Shown piece after piece: positions 5,803 to 9,409 of a stretch of DNA of 64,000 nucleotides. The position numbers and the translations under genes were made by a program. Location of the stretch: assembly GCF_000828655.1 (NCBI RefSeq), contig NZ_AP014509.1:1054001-1118000 (forward strand), read 5' to 3'. The stretch is from Thermotoga caldifontis AZM44c09 (GTDB taxonomy: Bacteria; Thermotogota; Thermotogae; Thermotogales; DSM-5069). The stretch's first letter is position 1. Each line of letters starts with the position of its first letter. The notes beneath the pieces were generated by a model, which saw only the letters and a list, made by a program, of their open reading frames with translations, was not told the origin of the DNA and did no database searches.

Positions 5803-5879
<77 letters not shown>

Positions 5880-5890
5880 GATTCGTCCAA

Positions 5891-5920
5891 GCCGGGCTCT
5901 GTGGCCCGGCTTTTGTTTTT
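5891..5920 (+). terminator. Terminator of tRNA-fMet
   Basis: GCCGGGC-TCTGTG-GCCCGGC followed by TTTTGTTTTT. Confidence 0.92.
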
Positions 5921-6350
5921 GCGTACAGTCCGGTCGACAAGGCTGGCTCTTTGTTTTTCCATTGAGTCAAGGAGAAGCTGGAAGGTGTTTAACGCAAAAG
6001 GTGCCACATTCTTTGTATAGACTTCGTTCGTTGTAAGAGAGATAATGCTACGCACGGTAAACAAGCACAGGTTTGTGTCGAAAGAAGGAATGCTGACACG
6101 ACTTGGAAAGAGATGTGGGAACATATTCAAGGAAATTTTCGAAGGCGCACGAACGGTGCTCGAGACGTGGCTTACTACTTCCAGAGCAGGGAAGAAAATT
6201 CCGATCGATGAAAATCAGCGGCTAAACTCGTTGAGTACTTTTCCCTTTGGTGGAAGAAAACTTTGGGATCAAAACACTTCTGCTATACGTGATGGGTGAA
6301 CAATCGTTCGAAGTTTTCTGGAAAGCCGAAGTGTCAGCCGCGGTTTTTTT
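5921..6350 (+). other. Gene-poor spacer
   Basis: No convincing gene. An 84-codon frame at 6045-6299 has no ribosome binding site and no recognisable family, and the opposite strand is no better. The sequence is A+T-richer than the core genes nearby and is probably degraded DNA at the edge of the accessory island. Confidence 0.5.
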
Positions 6351-6353
6351 ATT

Positions 6354-6380
6354 TTGACATTTGGTATTACAATGCATAGT
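6354..6380 (+). promoter_or_regulatory. Probable promoter of the accessory cassette
   Basis: A perfect TTGACA (6354-6359) follows a T-rich run. The -10 is less certain: CATAGT (6375-6380) is 15 bases away. AGGAGG follows at once (6381-6386). Confidence 0.45.
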
Positions 6381-6387
6381 AGGAGGT

Positions 6388-6537
6388 GTGAATATCCAGG
6401 TCTGGCTTGGGATTATCCCTCTTTTCATTATCGGCTCTGTTATTCTCATCTCCACATGTTCATATAAGCTCCGTGGTAATTTGTCTGATTTCAACCTTTT
6501 GGTGCGCCTTGAAAACCTCACGTATCGCTATAGGTAG
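6388..6537 (+). CDS. Small membrane peptide (putative, 49 aa)
   Basis: After AGGAGG (6381-6386) a frame of 49 codons encodes a short N-terminus, a hydrophobic helix (VWLGIIPLFIIGSVILIST) and a basic, polar tail ending YRYR. This is the shape of a single-span membrane peptide. The only standard start codon, GTG at 6388, is one base from the Shine-Dalgarno, which is too close; in-frame ATC at 6394 would be better spaced but is a rare start. It ends 34 bases before the next gene's start and probably shares its transcript. Unrecognised family; existence as a gene is uncertain. Confidence 0.35.
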   Translation: MNIQVWLGIIPLFIIGSVILISTCSYKLRGNLSDFNLLVRLENLTYRYR

Positions 6538-6556
6538 TATAATATGAAAACCTCAC
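6510..6556 (+). repeat. 12-bp direct repeat around a TATAAT
   Basis: TGAAAACCTCAC occurs at 6510-6521 and again at 6545-6556, 35 bases apart. A perfect TATAAT (6538-6543) sits between them just before the 432-aa gene. It could be a paired regulator site or a small duplication. Confidence 0.5.
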
Positions 6557-6570
6557 ACGGAGGTGAAAGT

Positions 6571-7869
6571 GTGAGAGAGCAGGAAGGAGAAGAAAAGAAA
6601 CTTCAGAATCAGGAATTCGACACTGATATCTCACCTGAGTGGCAAAAGAAATTTCCTATCCGGGGACTTCTGATAGTCATTCTCATCCTTTTGTGTTCTG
6701 GTTCTCTTGTAACCAGCCTGTTAACTGTGTTCTTATTAAACCAGTTTCTTAGTAACGCTCAGATATTCTTCAAGCCATCAGCTCATAGTTCAATTATTCC
6801 TCGCCTCATCGAAGAAGCAGAAACCAGATTGTCCGAGAAAGACTATGAAACTGCTCATCTCATGATTCTAAACGCGTTAATACACTCTCTTAACAATTCT
6901 GAGCTTTTCGAGGAATACGAACGAATCCTCAACCTGGTCACCTCAAACGTTGAGAGTCCCCAAACCGTGCTCTGGATTTTGAACACTGGAGAAACTCTTA
7001 TTATAAAAGCAATGTTTGAGAAGGATCCAGTACATTTCTCGAGCATCTATCAGATTTTGAAATTTATAAGAGACAAAAGATCGGAGTATCTCGAGAATCT
7101 AGTAGGGTACATCTGGAAACTCGAAAAAGGTGGAGAAATTGAACGGGTGAATCTCCTCACGAGGAGCTGCATGGACATTTTTGCATCTTCCAAAAAACTA
7201 GCAGAAAGCCTTATAGATTTATTCGTAAAAAGACTGGAGCATCTTTCGGAGTCAGAGGATCCTTTGCTTGGCCAAGCATATGATACTCTGGAGATAGCAT
7301 TATCTCTTGAGGAAAAGCTTGCCTCAAGCATGATCGAGATTACCTCAATTAAAGAGAAAGTCAGCAGGATAAATGAACTAGTTGGTTACATTGAAAAGAG
7401 AGAACTAGAGAGAGAAAAAGCTTCGTTACTAGCCTCACCTGATATATGGAAATACAAAGATGAATCTGAGGAGGTATTATCAGCAAAGGTCCAGACTTTT
7501 GTAACAAAAGTCCAGGTGCTACTCAATAATCCTCTTATGGATGACAGTGAGAAAGAAAAAATTTACCAGACCATGTACAAAATTCAGAAGGACTATCAAA
7601 CCATACTTGAGGAGAAGAAAGCTAAGAGTTTGAAATACTACAATCAATGGGCACTGGAGATCTTAAAAAAGTATAATCCTAACTGGAAAACATCACAAAT
7701 AGTTGAATATGGAAGAGAATTGGGAAAGATTGATAGAAAGTACTTGTTTACGGAGGTTGATATGTACTATAACTACCTGCTCTCCAAAATCATTGAAAAA
7801 CTCAAGGAAAAGGAGGACATCACTAAATTCGTAGACAACATGTTTCAGCAACACAAGCATTCACCATAG
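6571..7869 (+). CDS. Membrane-anchored helical protein of unknown function
   Basis: A 432-aa protein with no family I recognise. An acidic, Glu/Gln-rich N-terminus of about 25 residues is followed by one strong membrane helix (residues 32-57, GLLIVILILLCSGSL onward), and the remaining 370 residues are charged and predicted helical, with stretches resembling tetratricopeptide or coiled-coil helices (for example LIEEAETRLSEKDYETAHL). With a cytoplasmic N-terminus the large domain would face outside. GTG 6571 is chosen because GGAGGTG lies 6 bases upstream; ATG 6544 lacks a site. Codons are A/T-richer than in neighbouring operons. It ends 15 bases before the next gene, so the two are co-transcribed. 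Confidence 0.75.
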   Translation: MREQEGEEKKLQNQEFDTDISPEWQKKFPIRGLLIVILILLCSGSLVTSLLTVFLLNQFLSNAQIFFKPSAHSSIIPRLIEEAETRLSEKDYETAHLMILNALIHSLNNSELFEEYERILNLVTSNVESPQTVLWILNTGETLIIKAMFEKDPVHFSSIYQILKFIRDKRSEYLENLVGYIWKLEKGGEIERVNLLTRSCMDIFASSKKLAESLIDLFVKRLEHLSESEDPLLGQAYDTLEIALSLEEKLASSMIEITSIKEKVSRINELVGYIEKRELEREKASLLASPDIWKYKDESEEVLSAKVQTFVTKVQVLLNNPLMDDSEKEKIYQTMYKIQKDYQTILEEKKAKSLKYYNQWALEILKKYNPNWKTSQIVEYGRELGKIDRKYLFTEVDMYYNYLLSKIIEKLKEKEDITKFVDNMFQQHKHSP

Positions 7870-7884
7870 AGGAGGTGAAAAGTT

Positions 7885-8772
7885 ATGAGGAAGACGTTTA
7901 CCATTATTGTCTTCTTGATATCGAAACTTTCGTTCGGACTTTCTGGAATAGAACATACATATATGTCGAGAATGATCACAGATGTTTTGAAAGTTCCTGC
8001 CAAATATGAACAGTTGTTCGATTTTCATAGAGCCATAGATACTGTTCCAGGTTGCAGCGCACCCGGAGGATGGTTTCACAGAGAACAATGGGGACACGAT
8101 GTGAGTAGTCTCGAGAGGCTACTGTTTGACAACAGATTCGATCTTTCTCCTTCCCAAAAGAAGATAGCGTGGGCTGTTCATATCCTTGAAGATTCAAATA
8201 CCAAAATGGGAGTGTCACCTGAGTCGGTAATAAAAGCGAGAAGGATCCTAGCGGGGGAATATTTCAAGCTCTCTACTCTTAGAACTATAGAGTACACTGG
8301 AATGTTAAGTTTCTTTGATTTTATATATCAAGTAGCTGTGTTGGGTTCCAATGTAAAGACTGCTACAATAAGCACTTTGAAAAAATACGGCTTAACAGTT
8401 GGTGTTTCAATTAGTGTGAATTTCATCGCATCAAAAATCTATCCGTACGTATACTCTCAGTCTTCCAAATTTATGTCGTTTCTACCCTCAGGATTATTAG
8501 GGCCCCTTGTCTACTTGACAGTGGATATTGCTTTGAGGAGCATAGCGAGCGGATCTTTTCTGAAAGCGCTCCTTTCCCCGCAAACTCTTGCGAGCGCTTT
8601 CTTTACAGCATTGCTTTTTGTTCCCTATGGTCAAATCATAGCCCCAGTAGTTACAGCAGTCATTTGGATGTTCGATCTGTTCAAAACCGATAGTATCCAG
8701 GTTTTCAATGATACTTTTGACAAAAAGTACAACGAGTATCTTTTGAAACAAGCTGAAATGAGTGTGAGATAG
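7885..8772 (+). CDS. Exported protein with phospholipase C-like His/Asp pattern and hydrophobic C-terminus
   Basis: A 295-aa protein behind a strong AGGAGGTG site. Residues 1-20 are a signal peptide (MRKTFTIIVFLISKLSFGLS). The next 90 residues hold H24 (IEHTYMS), D52 (HRAIDTVPG), H65 and H70 (WFHREQWGHD), and H99-x3-D103 (AVHILEDSN), an order and spacing resembling zinc-dependent phospholipase C/S1-P1 nuclease folds (H, D, H, HxxxD). The last His/Glu ligands of that family are not visible. Residues 140-265 carry several hydrophobic, glycine/serine-rich segments that could enter a membrane. A+T-rich like its upstream partner. Function is unassigned; the metal-enzyme idea is inference from motif order. 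Confidence 0.75.
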   Translation: MRKTFTIIVFLISKLSFGLSGIEHTYMSRMITDVLKVPAKYEQLFDFHRAIDTVPGCSAPGGWFHREQWGHDVSSLERLLFDNRFDLSPSQKKIAWAVHILEDSNTKMGVSPESVIKARRILAGEYFKLSTLRTIEYTGMLSFFDFIYQVAVLGSNVKTATISTLKKYGLTVGVSISVNFIASKIYPYVYSQSSKFMSFLPSGLLGPLVYLTVDIALRSIASGSFLKALLSPQTLASAFFTALLFVPYGQIIAPVVTAVIWMFDLFKTDSIQVFNDTFDKKYNEYLLKQAEMSVR

Positions 8773-9030
8773 ATGAGAATTCCTCAGAAACCTGTCCAGG
8801 AACGATTTCAACCTATTTACGAGTATCGATGGAGCTTTTGCAAGTAGATTGGTTAGTTCACCACGTGCTATCCCATTCTTCGATTACGCTACACGCTTAC
8901 CGGCTTCTTCGCTCCGTAATGGTTCCAAGAAAATACGATCTACTTCATCTTGAAACCTAACAGATCTATTGGTTCTATCTTTTTGCGCCATCGAAACTTG
9001 TTGGTTGTGAAGTTCCACGGTCTCCCTCTC

Positions 9031-9068
9031 AAGAACGAATCGTTCTTCCGTGAAACTCTCAAAGTTTC
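9031..9068 (+). repeat. Two adjacent perfect inverted repeats
   Basis: AAGAACGA-A-TCGTTCTT (9031-9047) and GAAACT-CTCAA-AGTTTC (9052-9068) lie four bases apart. They could be operator sites or hairpins of a small RNA; neither has a T-run typical of a terminator. Confidence 0.6.
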
Positions 9069-9163
9069 ATTCCACCCTGCACAGAGTTTATTTGTACCCG
9101 TAAATCGCTGTCACTATTCCTCCAAAGTGTTCGTTCAGAGTTTCAATGATGCTTTAAATTCTC

Positions 9164-9189
9164 GCTCCCACCTCCTGAAAAGTGGGAGC
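9164..9189 (-). repeat. Hairpin resembling an IS200/IS605 right-end structure
   Basis: GCTCCCAC and GTGGGAGC form an 8-bp stem with a 10-base loop. On the minus strand the context ATGAAGAGAGGAG, hairpin, GAGAATTTAA resembles the subterminal hairpin after many IS605 tnpB genes. No tnpB coding sequence is readable upstream, so at most this is a remnant. Confidence 0.3.
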
Positions 9190-9409
9190 CTCACTCCTCT
9201 CTTCATGTACGGCTTACGAGTATAAATCCAGAAAGCACATCCCATTTATGAGATTGGGAATAGAGTCAAGCGTTGTACTTGCCCCCACTGTTTTCGTCTG
9301 ACAACTTTTTTCAATCGCAGTTTACCTTACTTATTCCATCACCGAACAGCCAGGTATGTACAGCGACAATGTGATCTTCGTGCGTTGCCTGTTAATCGGT
9401 GCGTGCTCA

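Follow-up and report, generated by a model that had tools for sequence, protein, structure and literature searches.

Type III CRISPR systems encode ancillary membrane effectors, including Cam1, Csx23, CorA, and Cam2/Cam3, that carry a second-messenger sensor (PMC10808066, PMC11014256, PMC11229360). Two adjacent genes, here called A and B, were analysed in the window, by which we mean the whole 64,000-nucleotide stretch of the Thermotoga caldifontis genome (G000). Like the described effectors, the A and B proteins are membrane associated and, in at least one relative (G092), are encoded at a type III locus. Unlike those effectors, they are two proteins with conserved parts predicted to lie outside the cytoplasm, and no CARF/SAVED/REC or other nucleotide-sensing domain was detected in either, as neither matched CARF/SAVED or a similar second-messenger sensor in Pfam or PADLOC. 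Moreover, a search of the window genome gave no match to Cas10, which excludes any dependence of the window pair on resident type III signalling. The features of the locus, in window coordinates, are as follows.

5803 to 5879, forward strand: tRNA-Met (CAT), called by ARAGORN and Rfam (RF00005), directly upstream of the pair's stretch
5880 to 6570, no strand: variable non-coding stretch between tRNA-Met and gene A
6388 to 6537, forward strand: 49-aa frame, unsupported as a gene
6552 to 6575, forward strand: perfect 7-bp inverted repeat CTCACAC...GTGTGAG (fold −10.4 kcal/mol, z −3.3)
6571 to 7869, forward strand: gene A, 432 aa, GTG start (frame calls, alignment, AF2, hydropathy)
7885 to 8772, forward strand: gene B, 295 aa, ATG start (frame calls, alignment, AF2, hydropathy)

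Both large frames were intact and adjacent in the window, with a gap of 15 nt between them. The strong Shine-Dalgarno sites that had been claimed for them were present, GGAGGTGAAA ahead of the GTG at 6571 and GAGGAGGTGAAAAGTT ahead of the ATG at 7885. Comparison of the window genes with those of two close relatives gave dN values of 0.31 to 0.40, far below dS values of 2.2 to 3.9 that were themselves saturated. As homologues at approximately 50% amino acid identity preserve both frames and their order and dN is far below dS, we conclude that A and B are real genes. The inverted repeat at 6552 to 6575 would form a hairpin with the Shine-Dalgarno sequence of A in its loop and the A start codon in its 3′ arm. 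No such hairpin was apparent ahead of A in the relatives, and thus it may be either a chance occurrence or a strain-specific control of translation. The 49-aa frame was also considered as a gene and was rejected, as its sole Shine-Dalgarno sequence abuts the GTG start and no significant homologue was found upstream of A in any relative. The cassette of three genes proposed in the original prediction is therefore reduced to the two large ones.

To determine the distribution of the pair, 101 Thermotogota genomes were searched, the whole sample by profile as well. Homologues of A and of B were found in exactly the same five genomes, as six copies: the window genome, a second genome of the same genus (G004), G049 (one copy on each of contigs C105 and C77), G031, and G092. 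Wherever the locus was complete, A and B were adjacent in constant order, separated by 15, 17, 14, or 41 nt or, in one case, overlapping by 4 nt; the G031 copy was split over two contig ends. Amino acid identity was approximately 50% within a close group of copies and 19 to 28% for the G049:C77 and G092 copies. A scan of GTDB contigs returned two Thermotogota metagenome-assembled genomes, both already among the carriers. Neither homologue was seen singly in an unrelated context, and the constant association of A with B agrees with the joint function proposed from the window alone.

Gene A encodes a protein with a charged N terminus, one membrane span by hydropathy (residues approximately 33 to 51), and a domain that was all helical in the AF2 model (pLDDT 82, and mostly above 85 in the helical part). 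The domain resembles a TPR-like helical solenoid in the model, and an all-helical protein behind a single membrane anchor is reminiscent of periplasmic scaffolds built from TPR or other helical repeats. A differs from such scaffolds in that it had no TPR profile match, and its Foldseek matches to helical-repeat folds were weak and unspecific (best E, 0.003). In G092, A starts with MYRSIFMCLILSVILGLLTLVSC, a lipobox that can be read directly from the sequence and that stands in place of the membrane span. As two different anchors, a span and a lipobox, are attached to the same domain, the helical domain is probably extracytoplasmic, and we infer that it probably works outside the cytoplasm.

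Gene B encodes a protein with a signal peptide, followed by a His/Asp domain and then by long hydrophobic helices (AF2, pLDDT 73; hydropathy). That all products of the locus are membrane or exported proteins thus held for A, by span or lipobox, and for B, by signal peptide, and lapsed for the unsupported 49-aa frame. Alignment of B indicated eight invariant residues (H24, D52, H65, R66, H71, D103, T106, and G109), and the small His/Asp site they suggest probably binds metal. The motif order H...D...HR...H...HxxxD..T..G resembles that of zinc-dependent phospholipases C (PF00882) and of the inner-membrane metal-dependent hydrolases YdjM/DUF457 (PF04307), and hydrophobic helices are a further similarity to these proteins. 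Relative to the YdjM motif H...PD.D...HRG..HS...HxxxD, the order in B is similar (H24, D52, H65-R66, H71, H99xxxD103) but the spacing is different, PD.D is absent, HR is not followed by G, and H99 is not conserved in every copy. The signal peptide and the partner gene are further differences. Membership in either family was examined and the profile tests were negative: no match above the curated cutoff was found to the Pfam profile of YdjM for any of 6 members of the pair or, for B, to that of zinc-dependent phospholipase C, and hhalign of B against Thermotogota YdjM members gave a probability of 0.1%. PF00882 did match in two pair-bearing genomes, to genes other than B. Since the profile tests failed, we do not claim that B belongs to either family.

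Searches of Pfam and PADLOC with both proteins, and of NCBIfam and PDB sequences with B, gave nothing significant, and the best Foldseek match of B had an E value of 1.3, with matches that were helical-repeat or random. Foldseek with both models identified no catalytic activity or fold. The large genes thus remain without a specific family match, as was first proposed, and neither matched a housekeeping family. One could still suppose that A and B serve as an ordinary enzyme or maintenance pair of the envelope, such as a YdjM-like metal hydrolase and its partner, that is often lost and regained. The motif order and signal peptide of B are compatible with such an enzyme, but the failed alignment to YdjM, the restriction to 5 of about 100 genomes, and the invariable pairing argue against it, and we consider it unlikely.

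Directly upstream of the pair's stretch is a tRNA-Met that was missed when the sequence was first read, and the GGG/CCC stem of its anticodon arm, together with an unpaired 1:72 position, indicates that it is the initiator. Three of the six copies follow the initiator tRNA-Met directly: those of the window genome, G004 (L015), and G049:C105 (L016), which represent two families. In other members of the window genus, the same tRNA site was occupied by transporter-like and other genes (G001), directly by a laminarinase-like gene (G002), or by other genes and a Cro/cI-like gene approximately 460 to 1,090 bases downstream of the tRNA (G003, L064). In G004, the order at the site was an SNase-LTD gene, the pair, and then the same laminarinase-like gene that G002 has. 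The gene between tRNA-Met and the pair in G004 encodes an SNase plus lamin-tail-domain protein (L015 11471-12406; PADLOC C3a212), and the Cro/cI-like regulator at the G003 site could be a trace of a former phage or element. The locus shares with tRNA-integrated genomic islands an adjacent tRNA and a content that varies among relatives.

Gene trees built with FastTree also pointed to transfer. The G004 pair grouped with that of G031, a member of another family (62% identity for A and 59% for B), and the window pair grouped with that of G049 (54 and 48%), whereas the window and G004 pairs were 50% identical for each protein. The permease adjoining the tRNA site was 94% identical between G000 and G004. 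As the G004 pair is closer to that of G031 than to that of G000 despite the nearly identical permease, different lineages of the pair took the same site; the tree conflict rests on six sequences. A further neighbour, at 1092 to 2021, had an identity of just 57% between G000 and G004, and thus low identity is not decisive by itself and more weight falls on the conflict in the trees.

Composition set the pair apart as well. The GC content was 0.386 for A and 0.403 for B versus 0.515 for the whole window, and their GC3 values, 0.43 for A and 0.41 for B, were the two lowest among the window's main genes (mean, 0.64; standard deviation, 0.07), which bears out codons richer in A and T than those of neighbouring genes. 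A foreign origin, already suspected from the window alone, is likewise backed by composition, gene-tree conflict, and the variable tRNA site. The flanks did not bear out a degraded island. A relative matched only the first approximately 50 bases of the stretch from 5880 to 6570, which include the tRNA terminator, and the corresponding stretch of G004 contains the SNase-LTD gene. No long plausible gene was present at 5880 to 6540 or 8773 to 9409, no remnants were detectable in either flank by tblastx and blastn against related loci, no second genomic copy of the downstream flank was found, and the tRNA was the one Rfam match. The flanks could be simply non-coding. We conclude that A and B are inherited together and have moved horizontally as an envelope pair.

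One explanation for transfer of the pair is that it is carried by a mobile element, or is what is left of one, and serves that element by altering the host envelope for superinfection or entry exclusion, with the tRNA site as the landing place. The variable tRNA-adjacent site, the foreign composition, the envelope location of the products, a Mutator-type transposase downstream of the G049:C105 copy, and the Cro/cI-like gene at the G003 site would all fit a mobile element. Against such an element, no integrase-like frame was seen in the pair's loci, no direct repeat of the tRNA end (att repeat) was found near the pair, and no relatives were found of B in IMG/VR viral contigs and phage records or of A in plasmid records. 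Moreover, two copies reside in cas neighbourhoods. We regard element cargo as rather unlikely.

The two cas neighbourhoods belong to the divergent copies. The pair of G092 (L020) was inside a type III operon, in the order helicase, large CARF-like protein, 264-aa protein, A, B, CARF protein (Cas_APE2256), Csx1-like CARF-PDDEXK protein, Cas10, and further type III-like genes; the window copy lies outside any such locus. In G049:C77 (L017), genes for a 216-aa exported protein and for a 196-aa protein accompanied the pair beside type I-B cas genes, which were named by eye, and a module of three genes encoding an RpoB-RpoC fusion (1,265 aa), a 239-aa protein, and an RtcR-like AAA protein (460 aa). 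No cas genes were found near the window copy and three others, and the G031 copy was between rnf and unrelated genes.

The module in G049:C77 belongs to a wider set. A fused RpoB-RpoC RNA polymerase, a single chain of approximately 1,230 to 1,475 aa with Rpb2 domain 6 and Rpb1 domains 2 and 5, is followed by a 220- to 300-aa protein and an RtcR-like AAA protein (approximately 460 aa), with matches in 26 of the 101 Thermotogota genomes, including that of the window. The polymerase adjoins cas6-, cas10-, type I-B cas-, CARF-, or CYTH-CARF-like genes in most of 11 loci, and a large CARF-like protein, with a CYTH-like start by eye, recurs beside the module or type III genes.

G000:C1:236865-240662 (L052 7865-11662), reverse strand: fused RNA polymerase module
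L017 8067-13930 and L053-L061: further loci of the module
L020 3333-6485, L057 8408-11584, L056 4487-7072, L053 12635-14914, L060 12511-14736, and L061 4076-7006: large CARF-like proteins

No full-length relative of the fused polymerase was found in phage or plasmid records, and no description of the module was found in the literature searched. The fusion may be a CRISPR-linked RNA polymerase. A relative of the 216-aa exported protein of G049:C77 was beside the same module in G070, and no remote copies of A or B were found in the fused-polymerase neighbourhoods of ten genomes.

The location of the G092 copy between CARF and Cas10 genes, the position of the G049:C77 copy beside type I-B cas genes and the polymerase module, and the SNase-LTD gene upstream in G004 that matches PADLOC C3a212 favour a role in defence. 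Caution is warranted, as the CRISPR link comes from two divergent copies (approximately 19 to 28% identity) and the G031 copy is beside rnf genes. Tentatively, this horizontally moved two-gene envelope module may act as an extracytoplasmic accessory arm of defence against mobile elements. A defence accessory is the reading that the neighbourhoods support best, ahead of mobile-element exclusion and of an ordinary envelope enzyme, and we hold it as possible rather than probable.

As defence accessories, A and B would act together outside the cytoplasm against phages or plasmids. Judging by the predicted topology, A would be tethered to the inner membrane on its outer side, by its span or, in G092, by a lipid, and would present its helical-repeat domain. 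B would be exported, carry its predicted metal-binding His/Asp site, and insert its hydrophobic helices in the membrane. A might scaffold or restrain B, and upon invasion B might damage or alter the membrane or block DNA entry. The original prediction had instead offered envelope interaction or antagonism, which was weighed here as an antagonism/immunity system against other bacteria. Exported and membrane products with a patchy distribution would suit antagonism, but no toxin domain was found, the loci examined contained no secretion system, and the pair was not accompanied by a conserved, separate small immunity gene. The neighbourhoods point more to defence against mobile elements than to contact-dependent antagonism, which we consider very unlikely. 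A bolder form of the defence reading would make the pair a Thermotogota immune effector of two extracytoplasmic proteins without a sensor, used both alone, as a mobile cassette at the initiator tRNA gene, and within type III CRISPR/CARF loci, as their envelope arm. B would then be a new metal-dependent enzyme that acts on membranes. In this full form the proposal is unlikely.

If the defence reading is true, a deep-branching phylum would have an immune effector with its working parts outside the cytoplasm, and one cassette would serve both alone and within CRISPR loci. Even without a defence role, a testable pair replaces what were mere hypothetical proteins, and the flank of the initiator tRNA-Met is a site of gene traffic in the Thermotogota.
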